Virus record (IMG/VR): IMGVR_UViG_3300042484_003148
Coordinates: 62,001-126,000 of that record
Origin: a virus
Direction: 5' to 3' (one strand)
DNA length: 64,000 nucleotides
Of the stretch, positions 19 to 56,342 are shown in pieces. How positions within the stretch are numbered: position 1 is the stretch's first letter; every line of letters starts with the position of its first letter. A program made the position numbers and the translations under genes. The notes under the pieces are model-generated. The model searched no databases, was not told the origin of the DNA, and saw only the letters and a list, made by a program, of their open reading frames with translations.

Positions 19-237
19 TTAGTTGGTGTTATTAAGTTTGCTTGCATCTTTGTAAATGTATTTCTTGTATAAATAGACTAATAAACTTAGTATTGCTGCT
101 AGTATTAATAGTGCAGGTATAATACCTAGAGGTAATAAAATTATAAACCAATTATAGGTTATTATTTTGGTTAGTTTTAAATAAATCAACATTATTTGTA
201 GTTGACCTATTAGGATGTATAAGTAGTTGCGTGTCAT
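19..237 (-). CDS. Small membrane protein closing the microprotein operon
   Basis: A 72-aa protein, not recognised. After a short N-terminal hydrophobic stretch (about residues 5-17) there is a strong membrane segment around residues 30-56 (YNWFIILLPLGIIPALLIL), then a basic patch (YLYKKYIYK), so it is probably an inner-membrane protein with one or two spans. Its ATG overlaps the stop of the last microprotein ORF (ATGA, 234-237), so it is probably translationally coupled to the array. It does not have the MKLxI opening or the IYxR ending of the array family, so it is a neighbour and not a member. Confidence 0.7.
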   Translation of the reverse strand: MTRNYLYILIGQLQIMLIYLKLTKIITYNWFIILLPLGIIPALLILAAILSLLVYLYKKYIYKDASKLNNTN

Positions 238-359
238 TGTTTTAATATAATAATGTAGTTTATAAAGTGCATACTATAGTTTTGTTTGATTAAAATATGT
301 TTTATTAAGCTATCATTCAAAACGTTGCTCCAACTGTAATCAAATATATTAAGTTTCAT
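234..359 (-). CDS. MKL-family microprotein, 41 aa (array member 27)
   Basis: Opens MKLNIF and ends IIILKQ, a drifted form of the family ending. Last family member of the array. Its stop overlaps the start of the 72-aa membrane protein by ATGA, and its start overlaps the preceding ORF in the same way. Confidence 0.65.
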   Translation of the reverse strand: MKLNIFDYSWSNVLNDSLIKHILIKQNYSMHFINYIIILKQ

Positions 360-469
360 CTGTCGTAAATTATTAGTTTATTGTAATGTGTTTTTACAGT
401 TTTTATATAATTTAATTGTTTACCTGTATATATTACAAAATCAGTAAAAAGAAATATTTTAAGTTTCAT
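356..469 (-). CDS. MKL-family microprotein, 37 aa (array member 26)
   Basis: Opens MKLKIF, ends NKLIIYDR, a typical family C-terminus. ATGA overlaps at both ends. Function unknown. Confidence 0.7.
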   Translation of the reverse strand: MKLKIFLFTDFVIYTGKQLNYIKTVKTHYNKLIIYDR

Positions 470-582
470 CTTTTAATTAATAAAATTTCATTAGAATGAT
501 AACGTTTTTGTAAAACAAAAAACTCTGTTGTTAAATATTTAGGTACGTTATAATTAGGAATAACTTGGGTTTTAAGTTTCAT
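466..582 (-). CDS. MKL-family microprotein, 38 aa (array member 25)
   Basis: Opens MKLKTQV, ends NEILLIKR. ATGA overlaps at both ends. Function unknown. Confidence 0.7.
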   Translation of the reverse strand: MKLKTQVIPNYNVPKYLTTEFFVLQKRYHSNEILLIKR

Positions 583-698
583 CTTTCAAATATAATTAAT
601 TTATTATAACGGATTTTGTCAATAATATAATTTAAAGACTCATCATGTTTTACTGTAAAACCTTTGTAAGGTACTATATCTAGTATTTTAAGTTTCAT
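579..698 (-). CDS. MKL-family microprotein, 39 aa (array member 24)
   Basis: Opens MKLKIL, ends NKLIIFER. ATGA overlaps at both ends. A TATCTTTG box (703-710) lies 5 nt before its ATG inside the upstream ORF, with GTTG 19 nt further up, so an internal promoter giving an almost leaderless transcript is possible. Confidence 0.7.
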   Translation of the reverse strand: MKLKILDIVPYKGFTVKHDESLNYIIDKIRYNKLIIFER

Positions 699-829
699 CT
701 TACAAAGATATAAATAATATTTTTAGAAACAACGCATTTTAGTCTATTTCCGAAAATAATTCTTCCATTAACATTTTCTATGTAACCTGAATCTAAATTT
801 ATACCTGTTCTATTAAAGTCAAGTTTCAT
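695..829 (-). CDS. MKL-family microprotein, 44 aa (array member 23)
   Basis: Opens MKLDFN, ends IIYIFVR. ATGA overlaps at both ends. Glycine-containing body with hydrophobic stretches near residues 24-27 and 38-43. Confidence 0.7.
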   Translation of the reverse strand: MKLDFNRTGINLDSGYIENVNGRIIFGNRLKCVVSKNIIYIFVR

Positions 830-942
830 CTGTTATAAGTTCTTAATGCGTTATAACGTTTAAAATAAATTACAGCAATTAATGTACTAGATGTAAATTT
901 AACCCAATTTGTACTTTGAGTATTAAATATTTTAAGTTTCAT
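826..942 (-). CDS. MKL-family microprotein, 38 aa (array member 22)
   Basis: Opens MKLKIF, ends NALRTYNR. ATGA overlaps at both ends. Function unknown. Confidence 0.7.
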   Translation of the reverse strand: MKLKIFNTQSTNWVKFTSSTLIAVIYFKRYNALRTYNR

Positions 943-1070
943 CTGTAAGTTAAATATAATGAATCAGTTTTAAATGTGGTCCATACATCTTTTTTGATTA
1001 ACAAGTTAAATGCTAATGTATAATATTCTTTTTTATTATTCTTTGAATCTGGATTTATCTTAAGTTTCAT
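939..1070 (-). CDS. MKL-family microprotein, 43 aa (array member 21)
   Basis: Opens MKLKIN, ends SLYLTYR. Lysine-rich near residues 10-14. ATGA overlaps at both ends. Confidence 0.7.
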   Translation of the reverse strand: MKLKINPDSKNNKKEYYTLAFNLLIKKDVWTTFKTDSLYLTYR

Positions 1071-1180
1071 ACCCTTCGATGAATTAATAGTTTGTTAGAA
1101 CGTTTATCTTTACGTTGAACATGAATATCAATAATAAATTCAAGAAAATTAATAGGAAATATAGTTCTTTTAAGTTTCAT
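1067..1180 (-). CDS. MKL-family microprotein, 37 aa (array member 20)
   Basis: Opens MKLKRT, ends NKLLIHRRV: the family C-terminus plus one extra residue before the overlapping stop (GTATGA). Strongly basic. Confidence 0.7.
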   Translation of the reverse strand: MKLKRTIFPINFLEFIIDIHVQRKDKRSNKLLIHRRV

Positions 1181-1311
1181 CTTTGGTAAATTCTTATTTT
1201 ATTATTCCATGTTTTGTTATGTAGTTTACCAGATAAACCTTTTGTTAGTAAATCAAAACTAGTTGTCTCGTTATAATTTAAATCACTTAAATTTAATATT
1301 AGAAGTTTCAT
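1177..1311 (-). CDS. MKL-family microprotein, 44 aa (array member 19)
   Basis: First member after the exonuclease gene, starting 5 nt past its stop. Opens MKLLIL, ends NKIRIYQR. ATGA overlap with the next member. Confidence 0.7.
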   Translation of the reverse strand: MKLLILNLSDLNYNETTSFDLLTKGLSGKLHNKTWNNKIRIYQR

Positions 1312-1315
1312 CTTT

Positions 1316-2380
1316 TTAAACTTTTTTACTAAATGACTTTTCTTTCAAAATCGTAGCGTAGAATGGTTCACAGAAACTCTTTAAACTACCATTCCAATGC
1401 TGCATGAAACCAATTTCGTCAAATATTCTAATTAAATTACGTGAACCTCTATTTTCTTCATCTAAAGGTAGTTCACAAGCTTCTTTTAAGTTGTGAATAT
1501 CATTTTTGGTAACAAAAGGTTCCAATAAATTAATTATTTTATAGTTGTTTTCGTATAGTGATATACCTAACTCTTCGTCTTGTCCATTAATACCGTATTT
1601 AATGTTATCTAGTACTAATAAAGGTTTCTTTTTGGTTAAAGTGCGTTCATTAATTAATTCCTCAGTTCTTTCAAGTATAAACTTAATATCTATCGCTTGT
1701 GTTTTTATCTCAGGAAATAACTTAATTAGTGTGTCTTCACCTAATCCTTTTACACCATATATATTATCACTAGTATCACCACAAAATGTCTTAACAATAG
1801 CTAAGTTTTTGTAATAATGTTTGAAAAATAAATGATAATTATCTTTACATATTAAACTCTTTTTAGAAGCTAAATAAACTTTAATTGTATCAGAATATTG
1901 TAATAACTGTAATAAATCGACATCACCAGTATAAACAGTGATTTTTTCATCTTCATGGTATTGTTTACAATACACAGAAATTAAATCATCAGCTTCAATT
2001 TCATCATGTGCCATTACTTGTCTAATGAATAACTCTTCCAATATATTTTGTAAACATATCTTGGTTCTTAATAAGGATTCTTTGTTTGCTTCCTCTTTAC
2101 GAATATCTTTTTCATCAAGAATTATTTTGGTAGTAAAAGATTTATGCATCCTGGTTGCTTTATAGTTACCTACTAAGTTGTTTCTTAGTTTACCATTATT
2201 CTGACCATCCCAAACAAAAACAATCTTGTTTGCTGCTAATTGTTTAGCCAAGGTTCTTAATGTAATTAAAGATAATAAAACACCAGATATATTTCCAAAT
2301 TCTGGAGTATAATGATTTCCGTTCACAGCGTGAGAACGTTTATATAATGATGAAGCATCTACTAGTAATGTGTGTCGCAT
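1316..2380 (-). CDS. 5'-3' exonuclease / RNase H-like flap nuclease (T4 Rnh type)
   Basis: A 354-aa FEN/PIN-like nuclease that would remove RNA primers and 5' flaps during lagging-strand synthesis. Seen: N-terminal LLVDAS (Asp8), VWDGQ near residue 57, the acidic EIEADDL helix, TGDVDLLQLL and CGDTSDNIYGVKGLGEDT, which are the successive metal-binding clusters and helix-hairpin-helix of the family. Length fits T4 RNase H and the exonuclease part of PolA. It sits inside the microprotein array, 3 nt after the stop of member 18 and 5 nt before member 19, so it is probably co-transcribed with them. Confidence 0.9.
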   Translation of the reverse strand: MRHTLLVDASSLYKRSHAVNGNHYTPEFGNISGVLLSLITLRTLAKQLAANKIVFVWDGQNNGKLRNNLVGNYKATRMHKSFTTKIILDEKDIRKEEANKESLLRTKICLQNILEELFIRQVMAHDEIEADDLISVYCKQYHEDEKITVYTGDVDLLQLLQYSDTIKVYLASKKSLICKDNYHLFFKHYYKNLAIVKTFCGDTSDNIYGVKGLGEDTLIKLFPEIKTQAIDIKFILERTEELINERTLTKKKPLLVLDNIKYGINGQDEELGISLYENNYKIINLLEPFVTKNDIHNLKEACELPLDEENRGSRNLIRIFDEIGFMQHWNGSLKSFCEPFYATILKEKSFSKKV

Positions 2381-2383
2381 AGG

Positions 2384-2512
2384 TTATTTGTTAAATGTAA
2401 ATAATTTATTTGTTTCTGAGAATTCTATCTTAAGTTTACCGTTTAAGAAACTGTTACCAATATGTGTTTCTTTGAAATTCTTGTAAGTTATCTGAATTAA
2501 TTCAAGTTTCAT
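2384..2512 (-). CDS. MKL-family microprotein, 42 aa (array member 18)
   Basis: Opens MKLELI, ends KLFTFNK. Ends with TAA rather than an ATGA overlap, because the exonuclease gene follows after 3 nt. Its own start overlaps member 17. Confidence 0.7.
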   Translation of the reverse strand: MKLELIQITYKNFKETHIGNSFLNGKLKIEFSETNKLFTFNK

Positions 2513-2616
2513 CTTTTGTAAGTAAGAATAAAGTTGTAACTTTGATGGTGTAAGTCATCCTCTAGTTCATCTAAAGTGAATTTGATGTGTGTATTTTCTG
2601 TTATAGTTAATTTCAT
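2509..2616 (-). CDS. MKL-family microprotein, 35 aa (array member 17)
   Basis: Opens MKLTIT, ends NFILTYKR. Acidic centre (DELEDD). ATGA overlaps at both ends. Confidence 0.7.
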   Translation of the reverse strand: MKLTITENTHIKFTLDELEDDLHHQSYNFILTYKR

Positions 2617-2717
2617 CTTCTGTATAAAATTAAAGTATTATAAAACTCATAATTAATATCATCTTGTAAATCAGCTAATATAAAAGACATATTGTAAGTC
2701 TGTTTTTTAAGTTTCAT
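2613..2717 (-). CDS. MKL-family microprotein, 34 aa (array member 16)
   Basis: Opens MKLKKQ, ends NTLILYRR. Contains ADLQDDI, resembling DELEDD of member 17. ATGA overlaps at both ends. Confidence 0.7.
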   Translation of the reverse strand: MKLKKQTYNMSFILADLQDDINYEFYNTLILYRR

Positions 2718-2824
2718 CTTTTATAAATTATAATTTTATTGCTTCTCTTATCACGAATATCTTCAATTAACTGTAATTCATTGAATGAGAAGAATATATA
2801 CCAATCACTTATATCAAGTTTCAT
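2714..2824 (-). CDS. MKL-family microprotein, 36 aa (array member 15)
   Basis: Opens MKLDISDWYIFFSF, contains NELQLIED, ends NKIIIYKR. Same length as member 14 and clearly its recent duplicate, matching along the whole chain. ATGA overlaps at both ends. Confidence 0.75.
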   Translation of the reverse strand: MKLDISDWYIFFSFNELQLIEDIRDKRSNKIIIYKR

Positions 2825-2931
2825 CTTTTATAAATTATAATTCTATTAAACCTATCATTTTCAAAATCTTCAATAAATTGTAATTCACTAAAAGTGAACA
2901 TTATATAGAAATTACTAACGTTGAGTTTCAT
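2821..2931 (-). CDS. MKL-family microprotein, 36 aa (array member 14)
   Basis: Opens MKLNVSNFYIMFTF, contains SELQFIED, ends NRIIIYKR. Tandem paralogue of member 15. The duplication is visible at both DNA and protein level. Confidence 0.75.
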   Translation of the reverse strand: MKLNVSNFYIMFTFSELQFIEDFENDRFNRIIIYKR

Positions 2932-2934
2932 CTT

Positions 2935-3057
2935 TTAAAGATTGTTAAGTTGTCTTTGGTAAATTATTAATCTGTTATAATATATGATATTAATATCGTC
3001 ATAAATCTGGCGAACACTGAAGTCAATTAATACAAAAGGTACTATTTTTAGTTTCAT
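2935..3057 (-). CDS. MKL-family microprotein, 40 aa (array member 13)
   Basis: Opens MKLKIVP, reaches the family motif RLIIYQR and then runs on five residues (QLNNL) to a TAA. Its ATG lies 5 nt after a TATCTTTG box, so it may be read from an internal promoter with almost no leader. Confidence 0.65.
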   Translation of the reverse strand: MKLKIVPFVLIDFSVRQIYDDINIIYYNRLIIYQRQLNNL

Positions 3058-3061
3058 CGTA

Positions 3062-3092
3062 CAAAGATAATAATTTTTATTTATAAAACAAG
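3062..3092 (-). promoter_or_regulatory. Internal array promoter (CTTG-N19-TATCTTTG)
   Basis: On the minus strand TATCTTTG (3062-3069) is preceded after 19 nt by CTTG (3089-3092), matching the Bacteroidota -33/-7 layout. It falls in the decayed slot and would start RNA at or just before the ATG of member 13. Confidence 0.45.
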
Positions 3093-3098
3093 TTTCAT
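3081..3098 (-). pseudogene. Decayed array member (5-codon stub)
   Basis: An intact junction box is followed by MKLVL and a stop. The remaining about 24 nt before the next member hold no family sequence but do contain an internal promoter. Best read as a remnant of a deleted member. Confidence 0.5.
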
Positions 3099-3238
3099 CT
3101 TTTGTAAATTGATAAAACGTTAATATAATATTCTTTATGTTGTACTGTGTGGTAAATATTTACCTCTGACTGGAAATCAATATTATTAGTGAATCTTACT
3201 GAAACGAAACTTGACATATTATTTATGTTAAGTTTCAT
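3095..3238 (-). CDS. MKL-family microprotein, 47 aa (array member 11)
   Basis: Opens MKLNIN, ends NVLSIYKR. ATGA overlap with the stub downstream and with member 10 upstream. Confidence 0.7.
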   Translation of the reverse strand: MKLNINNMSSFVSVRFTNNIDFQSEVNIYHTVQHKEYYINVLSIYKR

Positions 3239-3351
3239 CTTTTGTAAATTGAAATTTGATTACTATTATTAATAACATCAATTAGTTCTATTTCTAACCA
3301 TTCAACGTTGAATTTAATTTCTTTGGTTATTTTGTTTATATATAACATCAT
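3235..3351 (-). CDS. MKL-family microprotein, 38 aa (array member 10)
   Basis: Starts with two adjacent ATGs (MMLYIN). The first is used for the ATGA overlap with member 9. Ends NQISIYKR. Confidence 0.65.
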   Translation of the reverse strand: MMLYINKITKEIKFNVEWLEIELIDVINNSNQISIYKR

Positions 3352-3461
3352 CTTCGGTATATTACTAATAAATTATGTAACGTTGTTGGTGGATTTCCTA
3401 AATCAACTACTCTAAATTTAGGTTGTAAGTAAAATGTGTAATCGTGAATATCTAATTTCAT
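3348..3461 (-). CDS. MKL-family microprotein, 37 aa (array member 9)
   Basis: Opens MKLDIHD, contains VVDLGNPPTT, ends NLLVIYRR. ATGA overlaps at both ends. Confidence 0.7.
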   Translation of the reverse strand: MKLDIHDYTFYLQPKFRVVDLGNPPTTLHNLLVIYRR

Positions 3462-3595
3462 CTCAAATAAATTGTTATTTCGTTTAGAAAAACCGACATG
3501 TCTCTTTGTTTATTTTCAACAAGATGTACGTAAGCAGTGGATAAACAAAAATGTTCATAAGTGTATTTAGCTATGTTGTCTATTATTAATTTCAT
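3458..3595 (-). CDS. MKL-family microprotein, 45 aa (array member 8)
   Basis: Opens MKLIIDN, contains YVHLVEN, ends FLNEITIYLR. Paralogue of member 7 (YKHLVQD, FINEITIYQR). ATGA overlaps at both ends. Confidence 0.75.
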   Translation of the reverse strand: MKLIIDNIAKYTYEHFCLSTAYVHLVENKQRDMSVFLNEITIYLR

Positions 3596-3720
3596 CTTTG
3601 GTAAATTGTTATTTCGTTAATAAATCCTCTAAGATTTCTACATTCATCCTGTACAAGATGTTTATAAACTTTGCTGTAACTGAACGGTTTATTTGTATAT
3701 TTATCTATAATTATTTTCAT
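3592..3720 (-). CDS. MKL-family microprotein, 42 aa (array member 7)
   Basis: Opens MKIIIDK, contains YKHLVQDE, ends GFINEITIYQR. Adjacent paralogue of member 8. ATGA overlaps at both ends. Confidence 0.75.
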   Translation of the reverse strand: MKIIIDKYTNKPFSYSKVYKHLVQDECRNLRGFINEITIYQR

Positions 3721-3860
3721 CTTTTGTAAATTGTTAGTTCATTTAGAAGTAGCTCAAGATATTTATTGTTTGTTTTTAATTTACGAAAAACATTACTTCC
3801 GCTGAAATTTATTATTTTATCACTATAAAATAATTTTCTTGTTTCTATTTTAAGTTTCAT
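3717..3860 (-). CDS. MKL-family microprotein, 47 aa (array member 6)
   Basis: Opens MKLKIE, ends LLLNELTIYKR, the same ending as members 7 and 8 (NEITIYxR), so these three look like a sub-family. ATGA overlaps at both ends. Confidence 0.75.
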   Translation of the reverse strand: MKLKIETRKLFYSDKIINFSGSNVFRKLKTNNKYLELLLNELTIYKR

Positions 3861-4000
3861 CTTTGGTAGATTTTTATCGTATTACAATGATATTTTATAT
3901 TAACAAGGGAGTAGTATTGTTCAGTTAATAACATAACTATAATATTAATTTTGTTATTGGTAAATTTAAAATTTTGAGTTGAATGTATTTTAAGTTTCAT
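3857..4000 (-). CDS. MKL-family microprotein, 47 aa (array member 5)
   Basis: Opens MKLKIH, ends NTIKIYQR. ATGA overlaps at both ends. Confidence 0.7.
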   Translation of the reverse strand: MKLKIHSTQNFKFTNNKINIIVMLLTEQYYSLVNIKYHCNTIKIYQR

Positions 4001-4119
4001 GTTCTAAATAAAATAAATACACGATTTATTTCCATAACTGTCGGATTTAAATCAAAGTTAGGGTTAAATATAGTTTGTTGTATATATACAGTTGTTAGGT
4101 TAGATATTTTAAGTTTCAT
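3997..4119 (-). CDS. MKL-family microprotein, 40 aa (array member 4)
   Basis: Opens MKLKIS, ends VFILFRT; the overlap is ACATGA, so the last codon is Thr instead of Arg. ATGA overlaps at both ends. Confidence 0.7.
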   Translation of the reverse strand: MKLKISNLTTVYIQQTIFNPNFDLNPTVMEINRVFILFRT

Positions 4120-4247
4120 CTTTTGTAAGTTGTTAGTTGATTATTGTACCAATCAATTAGTATGCCTTTTGGTCCTTTTAATGTTTTATACAAATCACTA
4201 TACTTAAAATCTATGTTTGCTTGATTTTTAAATATCTTAAGTTTCAT
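4116..4247 (-). CDS. MKL-family microprotein, 43 aa (array member 3)
   Basis: Opens MKLKIF, ends NQLTTYKR. ATGA overlaps at both ends. Confidence 0.7.
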   Translation of the reverse strand: MKLKIFKNQANIDFKYSDLYKTLKGPKGILIDWYNNQLTTYKR

Positions 4248-4348
4248 CTTATATAAATCCTTAGTTCTATAAAATCATAATCTTCTCTAGAATTTAAATC
4301 AGTTATATCAAATTCAGGTAACTGATAATAATGTATTTTTAATTTCAT
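4244..4348 (-). CDS. MKL-family microprotein, 34 aa (array member 2)
   Basis: Opens MKLKIHYY, ends LRIYIR. Starts 6 nt after the stop of member 1 and overlaps member 3 by ATGA. Confidence 0.7.
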   Translation of the reverse strand: MKLKIHYYQLPEFDITDLNSREDYDFIELRIYIR

Positions 4349-4354
4349 CTTTTG

Positions 4355-4486
4355 TTATCTTTTGAATATTGATATATAATTAATAGACTCGATTACATTG
4401 ACCATTTTTATTTGATGAAAAATTAATCTGTATCTCATCGTTTTATTGAAATTTAAAGCTGTGTTTTTGTTTATACCTAGTTTCAT
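4355..4486 (-). CDS. MKL-family microprotein, 43 aa (array member 1)
   Basis: The open frame extends upstream to 4567, but the internal ATG at 4486 is preferred. It gives the family start MKLGIN and lies about 17 nt after the probable transcription start of the TATCTTTG promoter. Ends ISIFKR then TAA. Confidence 0.7.
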   Translation of the reverse strand: MKLGINKNTALNFNKTMRYRLIFHQIKMVNVIESINYISIFKR

Positions 4487-4509: not shown

Positions 4510-4540
4510 CAAAGATAGTTTTTATTTTTGAGAAATAAAA
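4510..4540 (-). promoter_or_regulatory. Main promoter of the microprotein array
   Basis: TATCTTTG (4510-4517, minus strand) matches the Bacteroidota -7 box TAnnTTTG. The -33 position (4537-4540) reads TTTT, a one-base variant. It lies just ahead of the first array gene, and no other candidate is seen between it and the endonuclease gene. Confidence 0.5.
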
Positions 4541-4573: not shown

Positions 4574-6055
4574 TTAGATTATGTTTTGTTGTTTTAGAAA
4601 TTCGGTTAACTTTTTTTCGACATCTTCGTTATATCGAATACGAAGTAAGGGTATGTTGTTGGTTAGGCAATATTCGTTTTTGATTTGGTCACGTTGTTTA
4701 ATAGTGTTGAATGTTTCTTCACCACCGAAATAATTAATAGGTTGAAAGTGTTGTTTACCATCATATTCTATTAAAATATTGTGTTCAGTTAAATAAAAAT
4801 CAAACGGTAATTCTCTTTTATGAACACATCCAAAAAATTTCTTTTCTATTTCAAAATTTATATTATGTTCAGTTAAAATCTCACTTATCCTAGTTTCACC
4901 TTTTGATGCCACACATTTTGAACAGCCACCACTTGCACTTAAATGTGTATTTGCTGAAATTTCAAAATCACCGTGTTCTTCGCATGTAATAATTACTTTA
5001 TTTTTTGAAAGTGTATAATTAGTTTTACTATAATTATATTTATTACCATGTATTTCTTTAGCTTTTTGAATAAATTCATCGTTTGTTAACCTATTCCCTT
5101 CATCTGCGCACATTTTACAACCCCCACCTAGTAGGTGAGTATTTGGAATTTGTTCAAATTCACCATGAACTTTACATTTTATGGTAACTTTTTGTTTATT
5201 ATGTTTGTAATCTACTAAACTATAGTCGTATTTATCACCATGTATTTTTTTGGCTTTTTCTATAAAACGTTCAGTATTGTTGTAATGTGTATTACATTTT
5301 TTACAACCTATTTTTTCATTTAAAAAACTACTTTTTAAAATCATGAAAGGACCATGTTCTTTGCAAATGATTTTAATTTTATCTTTTTTAGTACCATGTA
5401 CAGTTTCATCGTAAATATATTTATCACCATGAACTTCCATTGCTCTTTTAATAAATTCTTCACCAGTAATTGATAGTTTTTCTCTGGAACAACGTTCACA
5501 ATCACATAATAGGTGACTTGATGGTGTTGTTTTAAATAACCCGTGTTTATCACATCTTAATTCTATGTGACTTTTCATGTTAATAAAATTTATATTGTCA
5601 TAATTAAATTTTTCACCATGAACTTCTTTAGCTTTTTGAATAAATTCTTCTTTAGTTATTGTATGATTTGAACATTTTTTACAACCTGTTGAGTTTATAT
5701 GGTTGGTAGGTCTTTGTTCAAAATATTCACCACATGAATTACATTTTATTTTAATTTTAGTATCAGCGTTTATATATTCGCTTTCACTGTAATCGTATTT
5801 ATCACCATGTTTTTCTTTAAAAACTTCCTTAAAATTGTCTTTATTAACACTATATTTTGGTCCACAACTTGGACATGTTAAATTTTTACGTATCTTAGAT
5901 GCTTTATTTAAAGTAAATGGTCCGTGAACTTTACATGTTATAGTAACAGGGTCGTTATTACTGATATATTTGGTGAGTTCGTAAGTATAATTTTCACCAT
6001 GTATTTTCTTGCATTGTTCAATATACTGTTCGTTGGTTAAGTTTTTAGCGTTCAT
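4574..6055 (-). CDS. Free-standing homing-type endonuclease with six zinc-ribbon repeats and a Vsr-like nuclease domain
   Basis: 493 aa. Six tandem units of about 57 residues run from residue 8 to about 385. Each carries F-x-K-A-K-x-x-HG-x-K-Y-x-Y and then C-x-x-HG-x-F...H-(L/I)...GC-x-x-C, probably zinc-binding DNA-recognition ribbons (DUF723-type). The C-terminal about 100 residues contain LPFDFYL, LIEYDGKQHF, FNTIKQRDQIKNEYC and LLRIRY, the PD-(D/E)XK/Vsr-like core of the EDxHD homing-nuclease type. It lies directly behind the replicative helicase, a common landing place for free-standing homing nucleases. Close paralogue at 36495-37781. Specificity unknown. Confidence 0.8.
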   Translation of the reverse strand: MNAKNLTNEQYIEQCKKIHGENYTYELTKYISNNDPVTITCKVHGPFTLNKASKIRKNLTCPSCGPKYSVNKDNFKEVFKEKHGDKYDYSESEYINADTKIKIKCNSCGEYFEQRPTNHINSTGCKKCSNHTITKEEFIQKAKEVHGEKFNYDNINFINMKSHIELRCDKHGLFKTTPSSHLLCDCERCSREKLSITGEEFIKRAMEVHGDKYIYDETVHGTKKDKIKIICKEHGPFMILKSSFLNEKIGCKKCNTHYNNTERFIEKAKKIHGDKYDYSLVDYKHNKQKVTIKCKVHGEFEQIPNTHLLGGGCKMCADEGNRLTNDEFIQKAKEIHGNKYNYSKTNYTLSKNKVIITCEEHGDFEISANTHLSASGGCSKCVASKGETRISEILTEHNINFEIEKKFFGCVHKRELPFDFYLTEHNILIEYDGKQHFQPINYFGGEETFNTIKQRDQIKNEYCLTNNIPLLRIRYNEDVEKKLTEFLKQQNII

Positions 6056-11127: not shown

Positions 11128-11162
11128 AAAACCTCTCTTAATTAATTTTAGGAGAGGTTTTC
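11128..11162. terminator. Bidirectional terminator (AAAACCTCTC stem)
   Basis: AAAACCTCTC/GAGAGGTTTT between convergent genes. The same stem recurs at 23036 and 56343. Confidence 0.8.
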
Positions 11163-14887: not shown

Positions 14888-16099
14888 CTAAACAGTTTCC
14901 AATAAAGAAGAAAACAAATTAAAACTGTTGCAGGTAATGTTGTTAGAAAACTTAATCATTGATGAGTTATTCTTGGTTGAATAGAATACTTTACCATACT
15001 TAGAAACAAGTTTATTAGTTTGTAAATCATCCAACATGTAACCATCATCATTAAAAGAGTATTCTTGAATTTTATCTTTTTCAATAAGATTTAATTCTTT
15101 TAATCTTTTAATAATTTTAGAACCTTTAGATTTAGATTTAAAACCAACACATTTAGCAACACCTTCTCTACTTAAAGTAAAGAAAGGGTTTCTATTTGAT
15201 TTAATAAATTCTTTTGAATCTTCAATTTTGTCTTTATTCACAAAGCCTGATAATAAATTATACACGGTTCGTTTGTCTTCATGTATATAAAAATCAAGAT
15301 TCTTTTCAATGTCTTTACGAGCAATTGAATATCTTTTTTTATTATACGAAGTTATTCCCTTATATTTTTCGGTAATCTTATTATCTAGTACCTTCTGAAT
15401 TAATTTATCAACATACTTTTCTCTTTGCTGTTCAATACTATTATTGATACAGTAAGCGTATAATATGTTTTTAAACTTATCCTTTTCATGTTTTACATTT
15501 TTATCAAAAATTACATTATTATCCCAATATTTTATATTATGAAAATCTCTTACAAGATTTTGTTTATTATATTTATTTACAATTAAATTTGGATTAACTA
15601 AAAAATTATTATCAAATATTAATTTATCTTGCATCGTACCAACATTAATAATGTTTTCATCAACAAGACCATCAAAATAATATTCGTTATCTAAAACAAC
15701 GTTGTCAGTGATAATTAAATTATCTTTTCTGATTCTTAATGTTTCAAACATAACCTTATCAGTATCTTTTCCGTTTTTATTATTATAACCGAAAGAATCA
15801 ATAAGATTATATTTTGAATTTAAAAATAAATTACCATTCTCTATCCTAACTAAACCTTTTTCTTTAAGAAGTTGAATCCTTCTTCTTATTGTAGCTTCTG
15901 AATAACCTGTCTTTCCACATAAAAACGCATATTTCTTCCTGTACCCTTTTATGGCACCACAATTTGTTAATGATTTAAGCTGAAGAAAGAATTCTACTAT
16001 TGTAAACTGTTCTTTTTCAGACATTAAACCTAACAAAACTTTTGGAAACGATATGTAAGTCTTTTGTTTTTTGATAATTTCTTGGTAATTTATGTTCAA
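14888..16099 (-). CDS. Winged-helix DNA-binding protein, possible replication initiator or regulator
   Basis: 403 aa. Residues about 30-95 (FTIVEFFLQLKSLTNCGAIK, GKTGYSEATIRRRIQLLKEKGLVRIENGN) form a classic winged helix as in plasmid/phage initiators and MarR/PadR-like proteins. Near the C-terminus AKCVGFKSKSKGSKIIKRLK followed by LNLIEKD is a second winged helix. The middle is Asn/Lys/Asp-rich. Stand-alone, with its own upstream region. Which DNA it binds is unknown. Confidence 0.65.
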   Translation of the reverse strand: MNINYQEIIKKQKTYISFPKVLLGLMSEKEQFTIVEFFLQLKSLTNCGAIKGYRKKYAFLCGKTGYSEATIRRRIQLLKEKGLVRIENGNLFLNSKYNLIDSFGYNNKNGKDTDKVMFETLRIRKDNLIITDNVVLDNEYYFDGLVDENIINVGTMQDKLIFDNNFLVNPNLIVNKYNKQNLVRDFHNIKYWDNNVIFDKNVKHEKDKFKNILYAYCINNSIEQQREKYVDKLIQKVLDNKITEKYKGITSYNKKRYSIARKDIEKNLDFYIHEDKRTVYNLLSGFVNKDKIEDSKEFIKSNRNPFFTLSREGVAKCVGFKSKSKGSKIIKRLKELNLIEKDKIQEYSFNDDGYMLDDLQTNKLVSKYGKVFYSTKNNSSMIKFSNNITCNSFNLFSSLLETV

Positions 16100-16141
16100 A
16101 CTTAATAAAATTTATTGAATTATGCAAATAAAAGAAGAAAA

Positions 16142-16405
16142 TTAATCTTGTATCATTTCAAAAAAATTAATATCTAATTTATATAAAAAATAATTATCAC
16201 TACTACTTACTTCTAAATTATAATAATTTATTTTAGTATTATGTGAACCTTGATGTATTAAAAAATTATTTGGTAAATCTATTTTAACATCTAATTTAAA
16301 ACTCACAGGCATGTATAAATATTTACCGTTACTGTAATACAGACATAAATCACTCAATTCAAAAACTTCATGTTTATCTAGTTGTTCATCTAAAATATAA
16401 TTCAT
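16142..16405 (-). CDS. Hypothetical protein, 87 aa
   Basis: Beta-rich small protein (YMPVSFKLDVKIDLPNNFLI, YYNLEVSSSDNYFLYKLDI). Not recognised. Upstream AAACTATATATTTAAAAG resembles the late motif. Confidence 0.55.
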   Translation of the reverse strand: MNYILDEQLDKHEVFELSDLCLYYSNGKYLYMPVSFKLDVKIDLPNNFLIHQGSHNTKINYYNLEVSSSDNYFLYKLDINFFEMIQD

Positions 16406-16517: not shown

Positions 16518-19500
16518 GTGGTAAAGAAAGTTAAAGTTTTTGGTTCAGGTTCAGAAGTTGCTAACAGCAATATTTCTATATTCAATAGTTATCAAACTAA
16601 TCCAAGTACGATAACAAACATAGGTTCCTTTTTAATTAATACAAATAATAGTTCAAGAGTTATTAATAATACAAAAAAATTAACTAATTTCTCTTCTAAC
16701 ATAACTATTGATTCGTTAAAATTAAACCAAGACCAAATAACTTCTATTATTAACAAAACAACACATTATAGTTTCAATATTGATAAGACAAATCTTTTAA
16801 GTTATGCTAAATATGGTAGTTTATTTGAAAGATTTAAAGCTGCGGTCAATAATATCATAACAACATTTCCTGGTTCTTTATATGTTAATGGTTTAATTGA
16901 TGATTTTACATCATACAATACTGTTAATAATTATGTTTATGATTCAACAACAAACATAGGGTCATTTAATGTTAATATGTTATCTGTTAAGAATAAATTT
17001 AATTTAAACATAAACAATTCTTCTTTAAATAATGACCCAAGTAATCATGAATTAAAAAACTTACCTGTTTCATATTCTGACTATGTTTTATTTGTTAATA
17101 ATACAGAATATGATGTATTAGGTTTTACTGGTTTAACATCAACAAATAACACTACTTTATATTTTAAAGTTAAAGGTAACCCATTTACAGGTTCTACATC
17201 AAGTTTATCGTATCACATTAAACCTAATCAAAACAAATATACGTTATTCTATAGTAACTTAGATTTCTTTGAACAGTATTTACTTAATAAAGATATTACA
17301 CCAATATACACAGTAAATTTTAGAATACCTATATTAGATGAAGATAATGATACAATAATTTATAACAATAAAACACTTACTTGGACCACAACTGATGGAT
17401 ACAATATAGATATTGATAATATTTCTTTTGAAAATTACTATAGTGATTTTATTGAAATTTGCAATATTTTTGATTTAGTTAAATCTGATTTAATTAATAG
17501 AATGTTAATGACTCAATCTGTTATTATAACTGATAACAGCGAAAGTAATAAATCTGTTCAAATTAGTAGAATATTAGGTAGAGAGATTGATGAAATTAAA
17601 AGATATGTTGATGGTTTGCAATTTGTAAACACATTAAGTTATGATAAAATTGACAATACAAGTGATGTTTTAATAAAATCAATGGCAAATACATTAGGAT
17701 TCCAACATTTTAATTTTGTTGAATTAGACAATGTATTTGAATCAATGTTTACACCCTCAGTTGCTAATGTTACAGGTTCAACAAATAACGGAAAGACACC
17801 TTCTGAGTTAGATATTGAATTATGGCGAAATATTTTAATCAATACAAATTATTTATTTAAATCAAAAGGTACAAGAAAAGGTATTGAAGGTATATTTTCT
17901 ATTTTAGGTTTACCTGATGCTTTTATTGAAATAAATGAACATGTTTATACAGTTGATGGTGTTATCGACCCTAACAATGTTGATTTAACAGTTATTTACC
18001 CGTTAAATGAAACATTAACTACATTACCATACGATAATAATGGTTACCCTGTTGCTGGTAATGAAATTGATAGTTATTGGTTCCAAATGAACGGTAATGA
18101 AGATAGAGGACAAGCTTACTTAGATGTTTATAGAAAATTAGGTTTTAATATTACAAAACAAATTGATAATAAAAAATCTTGGGTTTATAGTACAGGGCAA
18201 ACCAGACATACTGATTCGTTTTCACCTACAGCTGTTGATTATTTAATTAATGAAAGTAAATTAGTACTTAATACTAAAGAAATTTCTGTTTATTTAGACC
18301 CTATTCAAGCTATCGAAAATGATGTGTATAATTATAATAAAACATATAATTTTCCAATAAGTTCAACAGGTAGAACATATCCTTATCCTAATAGAAGTAA
18401 TACATCTTTTAGTGTAACAGGTTTAACCTTTAACCAATATGTGTCTGAAAGTTATATTAATTTTATTAACGTACAAAATAGAAAAACAATAACATCAGCG
18501 AATGGTATCAACTATCCTTCATTATACAAATTATATGAAGATTATTTATTAGTTACAAATTCAAATAAATATACACTTGAAAAAATATACACATTTATTG
18601 ATAAATTTCAAAATTTATATCAAAAATTAATAACCCAATTATTAAGTGCTACTGTAATTGTTGGTGAAGATGGTATTAAAATAAAAAATTTAATTTACAC
18701 TGAACAAAAGTTTGATTACAAAAATGGTATAGATGTTGGTAGTGAATTTAAAAATGAACAACCTAAAGATTTAAATGCTGATTTAAATTCAGTTACAACT
18801 ATTTCAGGTTTTTATACTAAACCTATAACAAACAATACTTATTTATTTCAATCTTATGGTAATGGTTCATATAACGGTTCAAACAGTAGTAACGGTGTGA
18901 TAAATTCAAACACTAATAATCTATCAGGTTTTATAAAACCACATCAACATTTTAGTTCATTTATTGTTGATTTAGATATACCTACTTTAGATATAAGTGG
19001 TGCGACTAAAATAGGTTCAATAGGTACAAATAATAGTGTGTATTATTACGATAACTCAACCGGACATACATTACAATATACAGTTACTGATAATCTCCCA
19101 GTTTTACAAAATAGTGGAAATACTTTTAATTATGAAATATATAGTTTAGATAAAACTATAACAGGTTTTACTAATTTAGAAATTGTAGTAAATACCGACT
19201 ATAAATCTTTTACTGGTTCTAGTGTATTTACAGACACTCTAGAGAAGACTTTATTATCAGGTGATACTGAGTATATAATTAAACCTTACTTTGAATATAG
19301 AACGAATTTATTAACTGGTGAAACAATAAACTTTAGTAGTGTGTTAGATTCATACAACTTAGATAGTATTTTAAAATACCCTTTACAAAAAGCTTATTAT
19401 AATTACTACTTTGATAATAGTAAATATTATTCTTATACAGGTCAAACATATTCAACCAAATCAAATGGTGTTTATGATTTACCTTATTATAATTATAATA

Positions 19501-20456
19501 ATGATAGTGATTGGTATTTTTTATCAGTTAAAAATCCAGATAAACCTGTTATATTAACAACTAGTACATCAGATACAACTCAACAACCTTTAGGTAATTT
19601 ATATACTGAAAATATAGTACCAGACAACACAGACACATTTGTTTTATCTTATCAACCAGCAGGTGATATCAAAGTTTCTGTTAATGGTAGTACTTTACAA
19701 AAAAATACCGAATATAGTGGTGTAACATCATTACCAGCGGCTTTAGCTAATATTACATTTAAATTATTAGTTCCATTTAACAGTAGTACTGATTTATTAA
19801 CTGTTACTTATGTTATTAATAGTGCTAAAAATAGTTTAATAACTGAAAATGAATTTGTTAATTATATGATTCCAACAGGCACAACTAGAGGTTTAGATGG
19901 TAGAGTATTTTATGATACAACAAATAATTATTATAGTTACATAATGGATATAAACAGTTTTGATGGTACTAGTAATAATTTATTAGTAACATATAATGGT
20001 AATACACTAACACCTAATCAAGATTATAGTTTATCTAACATTGTAAAAAACAAAATAAAACTTCATAATATATTAGTTGAAAGTGGTGATACTATAACAG
20101 TTAGTTATCCAACTCAAAACCAATCTATTATTTCAATGTCAAGTACATCTCAAGTAATAAATTGGGATACTAACAATGTAATTCCAATAAATGAAACAGG
20201 ATATTTTAATCTAGAGTTATCAACTGATACTGTATTTAATACTATTACATGTGTTTCAAATAATATTAATTATGTAGTAGGGCAAAATGTATTTAGCGAA
20301 ACAATTGACTTAACAATAGCACCTTACAATGTTTTAACATATAATACAACCTATTATGGAAGAATCAAAAGTACTAGGTTATATTCAACAGTAAACGGTG
20401 ACATTATACCTGTAACAATTTATAGTGATAAATTTACAATAAAAACAACTTCTTAA
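16518..20456 (+). CDS. Large virion structural protein (tail/baseplate), 1312 aa
   Basis: GTG start, then VKKVKVFGSG. Asn/Thr/Ser-rich beta protein with TGST turns. Around residues 440-475, LFKSKGTRKGIEGIFSILGL is the 'extra-chain' signature found in tail/baseplate proteins of the P2 gpI / T4 wedge type. The C-terminal about 95 residues (FNLELSTDTVFN, TTYYGRIKSTR) look like a fibronectin-III-type domain. Likely a baseplate wedge or tail component. A late-type motif precedes it. Confidence 0.7.
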   Translation: MVKKVKVFGSGSEVANSNISIFNSYQTNPSTITNIGSFLINTNNSSRVINNTKKLTNFSSNITIDSLKLNQDQITSIINKTTHYSFNIDKTNLLSYAKYGSLFERFKAAVNNIITTFPGSLYVNGLIDDFTSYNTVNNYVYDSTTNIGSFNVNMLSVKNKFNLNINNSSLNNDPSNHELKNLPVSYSDYVLFVNNTEYDVLGFTGLTSTNNTTLYFKVKGNPFTGSTSSLSYHIKPNQNKYTLFYSNLDFFEQYLLNKDITPIYTVNFRIPILDEDNDTIIYNNKTLTWTTTDGYNIDIDNISFENYYSDFIEICNIFDLVKSDLINRMLMTQSVIITDNSESNKSVQISRILGREIDEIKRYVDGLQFVNTLSYDKIDNTSDVLIKSMANTLGFQHFNFVELDNVFESMFTPSVANVTGSTNNGKTPSELDIELWRNILINTNYLFKSKGTRKGIEGIFSILGLPDAFIEINEHVYTVDGVIDPNNVDLTVIYPLNETLTTLPYDNNGYPVAGNEIDSYWFQMNGNEDRGQAYLDVYRKLGFNITKQIDNKKSWVYSTGQTRHTDSFSPTAVDYLINESKLVLNTKEISVYLDPIQAIENDVYNYNKTYNFPISSTGRTYPYPNRSNTSFSVTGLTFNQYVSESYINFINVQNRKTITSANGINYPSLYKLYEDYLLVTNSNKYTLEKIYTFIDKFQNLYQKLITQLLSATVIVGEDGIKIKNLIYTEQKFDYKNGIDVGSEFKNEQPKDLNADLNSVTTISGFYTKPITNNTYLFQSYGNGSYNGSNSSNGVINSNTNNLSGFIKPHQHFSSFIVDLDIPTLDISGATKIGSIGTNNSVYYYDNSTGHTLQYTVTDNLPVLQNSGNTFNYEIYSLDKTITGFTNLEIVVNTDYKSFTGSSVFTDTLEKTLLSGDTEYIIKPYFEYRTNLLTGETINFSSVLDSYNLDSILKYPLQKAYYNYYFDNSKYYSYTGQTYSTKSNGVYDLPYYNYNNDSDWYFLSVKNPDKPVILTTSTSDTTQQPLGNLYTENIVPDNTDTFVLSYQPAGDIKVSVNGSTLQKNTEYSGVTSLPAALANITFKLLVPFNSSTDLLTVTYVINSAKNSLITENEFVNYMIPTGTTRGLDGRVFYDTTNNYYSYIMDINSFDGTSNNLLVTYNGNTLTPNQDYSLSNIVKNKIKLHNILVESGDTITVSYPTQNQSIISMSSTSQVINWDTNNVIPINETGYFNLELSTDTVFNTITCVSNNINYVVGQNVFSETIDLTIAPYNVLTYNTTYYGRIKSTRLYSTVNGDIIPVTIYSDKFTIKTTS

Positions 20457-20525: not shown

Positions 20526-20651
20526 ATGATGTTATTAGGATTTATTTGTGGGATTCCACTAGCAATGTTAGCGTTTAAAATAGGTGAAAGTGATGGTAAT
20601 GTAGTTTATCAAATTATAGAAGATGCTGCTAAAAGAAATGCTAAAAATTAA
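20526..20651 (+). CDS. Short protein with N-terminal membrane segment, 41 aa
   Basis: Two adjacent ATGs, then LLGFICGIPLAMLAF and a hydrophilic tail (KIGESDGNVVYQIIEDAAKR). Ends 6 nt before a terminator. Not recognised. Confidence 0.5.
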   Translation: MMLLGFICGIPLAMLAFKIGESDGNVVYQIIEDAAKRNAKN

Positions 20652-20657
20652 CAAACT

Positions 20658-20690
20658 AAACCTTACTTATTAATTTAAGTAAGGTTTTTT
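20658..20690 (+). terminator. Rho-independent terminator
   Basis: AAACCTTACTTA/TAAGTAAGGTTT 12-bp stem, 6-nt loop, then T6. Confidence 0.85.
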
Positions 20691-20705
20691 ATTTTTTAAA
20701 ATATA

Positions 20706-20737
20706 TTTGTTATTTATTGTTTAAATACGTACTTTTG
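20706..20737 (+). promoter_or_regulatory. Promoter TTTG-N20-TACTTTTG
   Basis: TTTG (20706-20709) and TACTTTTG (20730-20737), 27 nt before the VWA gene. Confidence 0.65.
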
Positions 20738-20764
20738 TATCTCACAATTTAAACAAAGTAATTA

Positions 20765-23029
20765 ATGTTAAAATCATTAAAAATTACAGATAATTTCTTC
20801 TTAAATGAAAGAATTATCAAACAAAAAGACGAAACTGTAGTAGTTTCAAAACCTGTACCTGTAAACTTCATTGTTAATATTGATGTTTCAGGTTCAATGA
20901 GTTGGGAATTAAATGAGATTCGCAAACAGCTTAAAAACAAATTACCTAACCTTATTAAAGAAGGTGATACAGTATCAATTATTTGGTTCTCAGGTAATAG
21001 AGATGCAGGTATTTTGAAAGAAGAAGTTGAAATTAAGTCTTTAACTAATTTAAAAGACCTAAATGATGCGATTGATAGATTCTTAAAACCTGTAGGTTTA
21101 ACAGCATTCGCTAAACCTTTAGAATTAACTAAAGAAGTAATTAGTAGAATTAAGAAAAATAGACCTAACAGTATATTTTCTTTATTATTCTTGACAGATG
21201 GTTATAATAATGATTGTTCTTGGTCAGACGTTACCAAACATTTATCAACTTTAACAACTGATTTAAGTTCATCTACATTTATTGAATACGGCTTGTATGC
21301 TGATTCAAAAAGATTAACTGAAATGGCTGAAGCTTTGGGTGGTGAAAAAATTTCAGCATCTAATTTTGAAGATTATGATGTTATTTTTGCTGATAAAATT
21401 AGTAAAAACTTAACTTCAACTAAAAAAGTAACAATTGATATTGTAGATAATAAACATAATTTTGTTTTCTCTGTTTCAGATGATAATGAAGTTTTAGTAT
21501 ATGGTGTTAATAATGGTCAAATCTTAATTAATGATAACATTGAGAAAATTTATTATTTCAGTGAACTAGCTTTATCTGATAATGAACTAACTTTTACTTC
21601 AGAAACTAACAAAGACTTAGCTAAAGTACTTTATTCAGCTATCTATGTTTTATCTGATAGAACATTAAATAATGATGTAGAATTAATCTATTCAGTACTT
21701 GGTGATAAATATACATTTGATTTGTTTAATAATTCTTTTGGTAAACAGAAGTTAAATCAATACAAACAATATATTAAAGACTGTGTTTCTGATGAAACAA
21801 AACGATTTGTTAAAGGTAGAATTGAAGATTTAGTTTTAGATGAAAATACATACTGTTTCTTAGATTTAATTAATGACTTATCTGCCGAAGGTAATTTATT
21901 TTATCCAAATCATGAGGATTTCAATTATAAACGTATCGGTGCGAAAAAAGTTTCATCAGCGAATAAAATATCTAAAGAATTAGCAGAAAAGATAGCTCAG
22001 TGTGATGATTTAAACCAACTCCAACTGTTAGTTCAAGAAGAATTAGATTCTATTCCAGGTGAACTTAAATTCATCAACAGTGAACCAAACAAAGGTTATA
22101 AATTATCTGATTTGGTCTACAATGAAAGCAGATGTAACTTATCTGTTAGGGTTAAATTCGAGGGTTATGTAGATTTACCAACTAACCAATTTGGCATCCA
22201 AAGAATTAATACATTCATTTATAGAACATTTACTTTAGTAAAAGATGGCATTTTAAACATAACTAAATTACCTGTAACATTAACTACTGAAACAGTAAGT
22301 AAAGTCGGTTTATTTGTTAATTTAAAAAATGTAACTGAAGATATTATTACTATTGATTTCAGTTCACTACCGATTATTAACCGTAGTATGGTTAAATCAA
22401 TCTCAGCAACTGATTTAGCAAAACAAGAATGGTCTCTATTAAAACTTCAAGCTAATAAAAAGGTTTATGACCATTTTGATAAAACATTATTTCCTAAAGT
22501 TTCAAAAGGATTTATTGACACTTACGGTAAAGAAGCTGAAGAATATTTAAAATCAATAGGTATCACAGATTTTAACGGCTTTGCACCTAAAACAACTAAT
22601 GCTGAAAGTACAGATTTTTACATGTCAGTGTTATTAGAAACTAAAGTTGCAGGATACTCTAGTTTACCTAAAGTTACTGATGTGATTTCTAAGATTGAAA
22701 AAGGTGCAACTTTAAAACCAACAGAATTATTAATGGCTGACGCTGTAAACGATTATAATAACCAGATAACATCTGAATTATATTTATCTCAAGACGTAGA
22801 AGTTCAAAAATCAATTCTTGAAAAATGGTTAAAGAAAGTTAAAACTGATTTTATAACTGAAAAAAGAAGAGTTATAAACGAAATAGCTAAAATCAAGTTT
22901 GGTTTAATCTTATCTAAAGGTTGGTTCAAAGAATTCAGTTCATTTGATGAAAATACTTTAGAACTTGAACTAGATGATAAAAAAGTTAAATTTACCTTCG
23001 ATTTAAAAGAAGAACAAGTAAATATCTAA
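20765..23029 (+). CDS. VWA-domain protein with intact MIDAS motif, 754 aa
   Basis: The von Willebrand A domain covers about residues 32-215. It has FIVNIDVSGSMS (Asp40-x-Ser42-x-Ser44), the metal-binding Thr region GLTAFAKPL and LLFLTDGYNND, so the MIDAS site looks complete. The rest (500+ residues) is unfamiliar, with helices near the C-terminus. VWA proteins bind partner proteins through a metal ion; in phages they occur with chaperone or tellurite/stress-type systems, but no AAA ATPase partner is adjacent. Own promoter and terminator, so probably a single-gene unit expressed before the structural genes. Confidence 0.8.
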   Translation: MLKSLKITDNFFLNERIIKQKDETVVVSKPVPVNFIVNIDVSGSMSWELNEIRKQLKNKLPNLIKEGDTVSIIWFSGNRDAGILKEEVEIKSLTNLKDLNDAIDRFLKPVGLTAFAKPLELTKEVISRIKKNRPNSIFSLLFLTDGYNNDCSWSDVTKHLSTLTTDLSSSTFIEYGLYADSKRLTEMAEALGGEKISASNFEDYDVIFADKISKNLTSTKKVTIDIVDNKHNFVFSVSDDNEVLVYGVNNGQILINDNIEKIYYFSELALSDNELTFTSETNKDLAKVLYSAIYVLSDRTLNNDVELIYSVLGDKYTFDLFNNSFGKQKLNQYKQYIKDCVSDETKRFVKGRIEDLVLDENTYCFLDLINDLSAEGNLFYPNHEDFNYKRIGAKKVSSANKISKELAEKIAQCDDLNQLQLLVQEELDSIPGELKFINSEPNKGYKLSDLVYNESRCNLSVRVKFEGYVDLPTNQFGIQRINTFIYRTFTLVKDGILNITKLPVTLTTETVSKVGLFVNLKNVTEDIITIDFSSLPIINRSMVKSISATDLAKQEWSLLKLQANKKVYDHFDKTLFPKVSKGFIDTYGKEAEEYLKSIGITDFNGFAPKTTNAESTDFYMSVLLETKVAGYSSLPKVTDVISKIEKGATLKPTELLMADAVNDYNNQITSELYLSQDVEVQKSILEKWLKKVKTDFITEKRRVINEIAKIKFGLILSKGWFKEFSSFDENTLELELDDKKVKFTFDLKEEQVNI

Positions 23030-23035: not shown

Positions 23036-23070
23036 ATAAACCTCTCTTATTAAATTAGGAGAGGTTTTAA
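23036..23070 (+). terminator. Terminator (AAACCTCTC stem)
   Basis: AAACCTCTC/GAGAGGTTT, 9 bp, then a T/A tail. Same stem as at 11128 and 56343. Confidence 0.8.
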
Positions 23071-23086
23071 TATAAATGATGTTATT

Positions 23087-23263
23087 ATGAAATTAGACTT
23101 TATATTTAGAAATGAAAAAATTTGTTCAGATTTTTTTCGTTCAGTTCTTTTTAAACTAAACTATCCAAAAGTGACTTATACTTGTATTTATAGTTATTAC
23201 AAATCTGATGAAATAACTGAAAATAATATGAAAAATAATCAAATTTATATATTTTCAAGATGA
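23087..23263 (+). CDS. MKL-family microprotein, 58 aa (plus-strand cluster 1)
   Basis: Opens MKLDFIF, contains NEKICSDFFRS, ends NQIYIFSR. The same start, ending and ATGA coupling as the large array, but on the plus strand and longer. Stop overlaps the next ORF by ATGA. Confidence 0.65.
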   Translation: MKLDFIFRNEKICSDFFRSVLFKLNYPKVTYTCIYSYYKSDEITENNMKNNQIYIFSR

Positions 23264-23415
23264 AATTACAAATAGCTAATTCTGAACTAAAAATCGAAAG
23301 ATTTCAACTAACCAAACAAGAATCTAGACAAACTTATTCTTACTTACATTTTAGTAAAGATATCAATCAAATGACTTTATTAATTAATAATCACTTACAT
23401 ATATTTACAAGATGA
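23260..23415 (+). CDS. MKL-family microprotein, 51 aa (plus-strand cluster 2)
   Basis: Opens MKLQIAN, ends NHLHIFTR. ATGA overlaps on both sides. Confidence 0.65.
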   Translation: MKLQIANSELKIERFQLTKQESRQTYSYLHFSKDINQMTLLINNHLHIFTR

Positions 23416-27316: not shown

Positions 27317-27650
27317 CATAGATAATTTTATAAATATTCTTGAACAAACAAAAAAAGATTGTTTAAGTATTAGTAATGAATTAATCAAAGCTGATTATTT
27401 AATTCAACTAGACAATATTGAAGTATGTGATGAAAATATTAATTCATATAACACATACTTTAAAGACAAAGTTAGTTATTTTGGTACACAATTTAATGGA
27501 AAAACAATTCCTTATTTTTGTTATATCAATAACACCGAATTTACACAGATTTTAACTATTGAAGATATTAATAAACTAGAACCTAATATTGAAATAGAAA
27601 AAGTTTATATTGAAGAATTAGAGTTTGCTTTTAATAAATTAACATTGTAA
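27309..27650 (+). CDS. Hypothetical protein, 113 aa
   Basis: ATG at 27309 (MNNIDNFINILEQT); a GTG 9 nt earlier is possible. Helical N-terminus, then YFGTQFNGKTIPYFCYIN. Acidic. Not recognised. Ends with TAATG shared with the next microprotein. Confidence 0.55.
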   Translation: MNNIDNFINILEQTKKDCLSISNELIKADYLIQLDNIEVCDENINSYNTYFKDKVSYFGTQFNGKTIPYFCYINNTEFTQILTIEDINKLEPNIEIEKVYIEELEFAFNKLTL

Positions 27651-32043: not shown

Positions 32044-32044
32044 C

Positions 32045-50533: not shown

Positions 50534-50561
50534 ATAAATATTTCATATCGGAATTTGGAAT

Positions 50562-56338: not shown

Positions 56339-56342
56339 AAAC

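Follow-up and report, generated by a model that had tools for sequence, protein, structure and literature searches.

The 64,000-nucleotide window analyzed here, positions 62001-126000 of a 195,283-bp virus record (IMGVR_UViG_3300042484_003148, hereafter G000), carries an array of very small genes close to its first letter. Between 234 and 4486 on the minus strand lie 26 open reading frames (ORFs) of 34 to 47 aa each, most of which are joined to the next by an ATGA in which the stop of one frame overlaps the start of another. These units are part of what appears to be a single new microprotein family, expanded to about 150 members in a T4-like jumbo phage. With a probability of roughly one half, we interpret the family as a diversified, translationally coupled early microprotein repertoire that acts on host targets. 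An earlier note made from this stretch alone had listed the same 26 ORFs, every one of which is present, and had placed the feature at 234-4486. Units do lie there, but they are a small part of a family that extends across two contigs.

The second contig, IMGVR_UViG_3300042484_002853 (G001, 69,893 bp), overlaps G000 head to head over exactly 255 bp at 99.6% identity. The gene content of the two is complementary, with capsid, terminase, and sheath on one and portal, ribonucleotide reductase (RNR), and ligase on the other. Because of this end overlap and complementarity, both are treated as one T4-like genome of at least 265 kb, and the idea that G001 is a second phage bearing the family was rejected; members on G001 therefore do not represent independent conservation. 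The carrier has the gp23-type capsid, T4-type terminase, tail sheath, and portal of a T4-like myovirus, and its host is probably a member of the Bacteroidota. An iterated profile search recovered 150 clear members (68 on one genome part, 82 on the other), and at least three more were recognized by eye (G000 40282, G000 40422, and G001 43228). Members are 34 to 60 aa long and are arranged on both strands in about 40 clusters of up to 12 units, making up about 20 kb of coding DNA, or 8% of 265 kb.

Coding evidence and the conserved joint

The reading frame of the family is already visible in its DNA boxes. When the pattern ATGAAAYTW alone is searched on both contigs, 105 neighboring pairs are found 60 to 200 nt apart, and their spacing is 2 mod 3 in 92. 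A single open frame ending at a TGA that overlaps the next ATG spans 88 of the 105 pairs; the +1 frame is open in none and the +2 frame in four, and shuffled middles have a mean open-frame chance of 0.036 per unit. Across the family, 98 of 109 joints are exactly -4, the stop/start overlap of a translationally coupled operon, and the longest ATGA chain reaches 12 in this phage compared with 3 in 394 kb of related phages. The codon use of the phage's long genes selects frame 0 in 140 of 150 centers. In addition, the C-terminal motif N-x-[LI]-x-I-[YF]-x-R is kept as protein through synonymous codons: asparagine is AAT 71 times and AAC 50 times, isoleucine is written as ATT, ATA, or ATC, and the aromatic position as TAC, TAT, or TTT. 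Last units, which stop at TAA or TAG and carry no overlap constraint, still end in [YFLI]xR/K in 25 of 32 cases, so the C-terminal arginine is kept for the protein and not for the joint.

Comparisons between members lead in the same direction. A profile built from G000 members matches 44 in G001 with no interrupted frame, and a profile of the centers alone separates held-out centers from shuffles (p=6e-8). Of 38 matches between centers at the DNA level, 31 keep the reading frame. The pooled ratio of nonsynonymous to synonymous substitution rates (dN/dS) is 0.55 for paralogue pairs picked by DNA match, a set used in place of pairs picked by protein identity, for which the related pN/pS measure is biased. 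Selection therefore acts on the proteins, although their centers are fast-evolving.

The start box also carries a signal at the nucleotide level. CTT serves as codon 3 in 89 of 150 units, compared with 13% of leucine codons in the centers and 11% in long genes, and the bias, which may stem from initiation or from copying of the box, is alike in coupled (62%) and uncoupled (54%) units; similarly, 89 of the 111 occurrences of ATGAAACTT sit at unit starts. The box is therefore partly held or copied as nucleotide sequence, and both counts favor an explanation in which it is a DNA or RNA element, such as a processing site, a recombination site, or a repeat array, with incidental open frames. As a full explanation this is refuted and very improbable, given the frame logic, the codon use, and the synonymous variation at kept residues; the units also have no RNA structure (mean z -0.07) and no match to an Rfam family. 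The same observations separate the array from a CRISPR-like (clustered regularly interspaced short palindromic repeats) or structured RNA repeat array, which is a nucleic-acid repeat with free non-coding spacers. Between the two outcomes that the earlier note had considered, a diversified small-protein family or a box conserved as DNA or RNA only, the profile transfer across contigs, the center-only profile, the dN/dS, and the RNA results decide for the proteins.

Three other arrangements were considered. Frameshift fusion of the units into one protein was rejected on inspection of the sequence: no slippery heptamer is present at the joint, the array is interrupted by promoters and gaps, and TAA closes the last units. 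Compared with integron cassettes, which have folded attC recombination sites, the units have no RNA fold; no integrase search was made. No reverse transcriptase, as in a diversity-generating retroelement, turned up among about 35 large ORFs scanned, in a scan that was not aimed at that enzyme.

Most units would be translated through termination-reinitiation at the ATGA joints. The 4-nt stop/start overlap is identical to that of known reinitiating genes. Operons with ATGA overlaps usually hold one or two such joints, whereas chains of up to 12 units with one joint type occur here. An A at position -3 precedes 81% of units and 48% of long genes. This resembles initiation in the Bacteroidota, a phylum without Shine-Dalgarno sequences, where A-3 raises initiation in Flavobacterium johnsoniae (PMC6847099), although a term search of that study turned up neither reinitiation nor overlapping genes.

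Predicted fold, growth, and relatives of the family

The AlphaFold2 model made from an alignment of 71 paralogues has a beta(4-12)-alpha(17-24)-beta(35-40) arrangement with a predicted local distance difference test score (pLDDT) of 92.3 and a predicted template modeling score (pTM) of 0.58. Here the two strands correspond to the conserved ends, and the helix and loops to the variable part. Each unit may thus be a self-contained mini-protein of 34-60 aa, in which the ends MKLxI and NxLxI[YF]xR would form a constant two-stranded frame while the fast-evolving middle gives every copy its own surface. The centers are enriched in W, H, F, and Y and poor in A and G, a composition that resembles that of binding surfaces. 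Whole units have a median isoelectric point (pI) of 9.6 and a net charge of +3, and K2 and the C-terminal R are near-invariant. The charge of the centers is about +1, ranging from -4 to +4. Cysteine averages 0.3 per unit, and no membrane-like stretch is present in the units.

The most similar units are neighbors. Eight of the ten top pairs lie within 1.5 kb of each other (0.5 expected), as do 16 of the top 25 (1.4 expected), which means that the family grows through tandem duplication nearby, after which the copies diverge. The earlier note had the family expanding by recombination at the box. Tandem duplication is supported, but recombination at the box is not shown: the best pair is 83% identical at the DNA level, so there are no fresh copies, and a further fragment (L017) matches the window without a difference over all 5,683 bp. 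The standard joint would permit units to be gained, lost, or reordered while the reading of their neighbors stays intact.

The same pattern is what a mostly neutral gene accordion could leave, in which tandem duplication is frequent, the self-joining ATGA units are harmless passengers, and copies last long enough to diverge although few function. Local duplicates, joints that make gain and loss harmless, a dN/dS of 0.55, and similar change across codon positions all agree with such drift. Nevertheless we consider it rather unlikely, because about 20 kb of a 265-kb genome stays open with broken units rare (the stub at 3081-3098 and few others), and because key residues are kept in pairs without residual DNA similarity. 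Useless DNA is also penalized under headful packaging, as in the case of T4 (PMC9391042).

Searches for relatives give a consistent picture of a family restricted to one lineage, as far as the collections reach. No profile match in Pfam, PHROGs, NCBIfam, or PADLOC is common to several members, each weak match being to one member only. Nothing similar to the units was found among PDB sequences, and no fold in PDB or BFVD matches the confident model at E <= 0.001 (best E 1.4). The two-box DNA pattern, searched in IMG/VR and 85,000 genomes, yields coupled open frames in the array-bearing phage only, the remaining matches being due to chance. Translated searches (tblastn) with single units in 50,697 phage records and in plasmids returned nothing, although such queries would miss distant members. 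Relatives of the phage were found by capsid (26-42% identical) and terminase, taking the best 80 loci per list, and many of the records are fragments; in the 82 records listed the family was not found, bar one chance match within a 328-aa ORF. It was not found in 295 Bacteroidia genomes either. The family and its coupled-array architecture are new, with no known counterpart of the units in sequence or in fold. The earlier note knew of no described phage system of this form. The literature searched yielded none either, and describes no parallel to a family that takes up about 8% of a phage genome with about 150 members, in coupled chains with a shared frame and variable centers.

The array in the window and its surroundings

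The array begins at unit 1 (4355-4486, 43 aa), and all of its features are on the minus strand. A promoter-like -7 element of the Bacteroidota type (consensus TAnnTTTG), TATCTTTG (4510-4517), lies 31 nt upstream. Past a small gap (4355/4348) follow unit 2 (4244-4348, 34 aa), unit 3 (4116-4247, 43 aa), unit 4 (3997-4119, 40 aa), and units 5 (3857-4000) and 6 (3717-3860), both of 47 aa. Units 7 (3592-3720, 42 aa) and 8 (3458-3595, 45 aa) are a tandem duplicate pair and are succeeded by unit 9 (3348-3461, 37 aa), unit 10 (3235-3351, 38 aa), which starts with MMLYI, and unit 11 (3095-3238, 47 aa). Next comes the stub seen in the earlier note, MKLVL* at 3098-3081, a start box with a stop after five codons. 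It is followed by a promoter of the Bacteroidota type, a putative TTG-N19-TATCTTTG (3062-3091) inferred from the sequence, with its TTG within the stub.

Downstream of this promoter-like sequence and the second gap (3095/3057), unit 12 (2935-3057, 40 aa) has a five-residue tail past its R. A third gap (2935/2931) separates it from unit 13 (2821-2931, 36 aa), which forms a tandem duplicate pair with unit 14 (2714-2824, 36 aa). Unit 15 (2613-2717, 34 aa), unit 16 (2509-2616, 35 aa), and unit 17 (2384-2512, 42 aa) complete this part, the last with a TAA stop directly before a replication gene at 1316-2380 that divides the array in two. Its 354-aa product is a 5'-3' exonuclease of the RNase H type, 32% identical to the 5'-3' exonuclease of Flavobacterium phage immuto (E 6e-20). 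Beyond it are units 18 (1177-1311, 44 aa), 19 (1067-1180, 37 aa), 20 (939-1070, 43 aa), 21 (826-942, 38 aa), 22 (695-829, 44 aa), 23 (579-698, 39 aa), 24 (466-582, 38 aa), 25 (356-469, 37 aa), and 26 (234-359, 41 aa). Unit 26 has the C-terminus LKQ and is coupled by ATGA to a 72-aa ORF at 19-237.

Coupling by ATGA had been described as nearly universal, and this applies to 21 of the 24 direct unit-to-unit junctions, or 22 joints with that of unit 26 to the 72-aa ORF. The exceptions are the three gaps and both edges of the exonuclease gene, a division of the array that the earlier description did not mention. Likewise, the MKLxI opening said to be shared by all is found in nearly all units, the exceptions including MKIII, MMLYI, MKLKR, MKLKK, and MKLDF. 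The window holds three isolated members on the plus strand, of which 23087-23263 (58 aa, scored by the profile search in its C-terminal part only) is coupled to 23260-23415 (51 aa), and the third is at 27650-27772 (40 aa).

Several other features of the genome were observed. A 493-aa protein at 4574-6055, adjoining the array upstream, has repeated HGxKYDYS...CxxHGxF...GGCxxC modules and a nuclease-like C-terminus, and by inspection is probably a homing or repair endonuclease. The repeated stem-loop AAAACCTCTCTTAATTAATTTTAGGAGAGGTTTT occurs in the window at 11128-11161, 23036-23071, 50559-50601, and 56338-56374 and elsewhere in G000 and G001, in about 20 places genome-wide (29 BLAST lines, some of which are both orientations of one place); it looks like a standard bidirectional terminator. 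The window also encodes a tRNA-Ser (31957-32044) and a 93-nt tRNA with the amber anticodon CTA (32673-32765), called as tRNA-Pyl. Despite the latter, TAG is still a normal stop in several long genes, with little open frame beyond it. Proteins that resemble TnpB/OrfB by inspection are encoded at G000 20615-21895 and 135250-136551 and at G001 15086-16366, with one pair 92% identical across contigs. The portal gene of G001 (L030, 67-2805) has an HNH-like stretch, which may be an intein or an inserted endonuclease, ahead of the part that encodes the portal. Directly after the terminase gene, a 930-aa protein (L016 14440-17232, G000 176440-179232) contains many HNH/NUMOD-type and DNA-binding repeats. 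Two large proteins of the window, of 1376 aa (44937-49067) and 1312 aa (16518-20456), have no PHROG match.

Candidate roles and meaning

Gene context suggests when the units may act. Several arrays adjoin genes for exonuclease, helicase, SbcC-like protein, RNR, and VWA protein, and the units would be expressed early, sharing operons with replication genes. The phage G014, whose capsid is related, has its genes for gp32, UvsX, exonuclease, helicase, and RNR in one compact microprotein-free block, some of these names being given by inspection. Phages are known to carry internal proteins and superinfection-exclusion peptides, and it is conceivable that the units are small structural, scaffold, or internal head proteins or that they give immunity against competing phages. 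Such a role is improbable, as no unit lies within the 76-kb stretch of tail fiber, baseplate, capsid, and sheath genes (G000 89,773 to 165,904) and the units are without any membrane-like stretch.

Most likely the units would serve as a repertoire of small proteins that inhibit or modulate host targets, including defenses. We infer this from the diversity of the units, their surface composition, and a precedent in T4, where the small anti-defense gene tifA was amplified in tandem (PMC9391042). As with TifA/Dmd, a small gene of a T4-like phage is amplified in tandem; in T4 the amplification is by recombination and the role is counter-defense. The T4 copies, however, are recent, identical, and under laboratory selection, whereas the units number about 150 and are old and highly diverged within a shared frame, and no sequence match between the two was found. 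Anti-defense or host takeover, as suggested in the earlier note, is a candidate function.

The strongest competing explanation is that the units are nucleic-acid-binding microproteins, acting as transcription regulators or nucleoid proteins with differing specificity or at high dose, which would contact DNA or RNA through their basic ends and their aromatic residues. The basic pI and net charge, K2, the C-terminal R, and the W/Y/F/H-rich centers are in agreement with it. So is the only comparable expansion found, that of the zinc ribbons of Bacillus phage G, about 35 copies that a survey of jumbo phages termed unprecedented and that are proposed to be transcription factors or DNA-binding proteins (PMC7824862). 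Both cases are lineage-specific expansions of one small domain in a jumbo phage, but the units are a different family in about four times as many copies and in tandem ATGA-coupled arrays, and the paired cysteine ligands of a zinc ribbon are not a feature of them, with two or more cysteines in only 5 of 150. Nucleic-acid binding is unlikely overall, since the units are unlike any DNA-binding family or fold, the charge of the centers, about +1, varies widely, and such diversity would be odd for a protein needed in bulk.

Several observations weigh against a host-directed repertoire. A dN/dS near 0.55, with the three codon positions changing almost equally, indicates weak constraint on the centers, and neutral drift of redundant copies would also produce the diversity of the units. 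The median pI is also compatible with nucleic-acid binding. Unit 3 of the window gives a poorer model (pLDDT 80), with the helix at the same place and the strands barely assigned. The units match no defense-related protein in PADLOC, which covers defense proteins more than inhibitors, and no known inhibitor (TifA, Dmd, Acr) in PHROGs. Finally, the family is known from one phage lineage only, and the identity of L017 with the window means that strain variation is invisible and that orthologues cannot be compared between species.

A stronger form of the host-target repertoire is tentative. It is possible that the phage carries a modular library of binders, in which the constant two-strand frame, the diversified middle, and a swap-tolerant stop/start joint supply about 150 units against many host and defense proteins at once. 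If true, a virus of prokaryotes would have its own counterpart to the large, variable families of receptors or toxins. Small phage proteins in general are likewise encoded by very short genes and have likely host-directed roles, although a search of a review of them (PMC11323111) turned up no paralogues, tandem genes, or arrays.

The family shows that very small genes can form a large share of the gene count of a phage and can go unseen by gene callers and by family libraries; the four that were searched have no profile for the units. Should the function be anti-defense, a known activity would here take a new form. Provided that different units bind different host proteins, every array would amount to a ready catalog of natural inhibitors directed at bacterial functions and defenses, and the standard joint would illustrate how tandem duplication can build up such a library in a virus.

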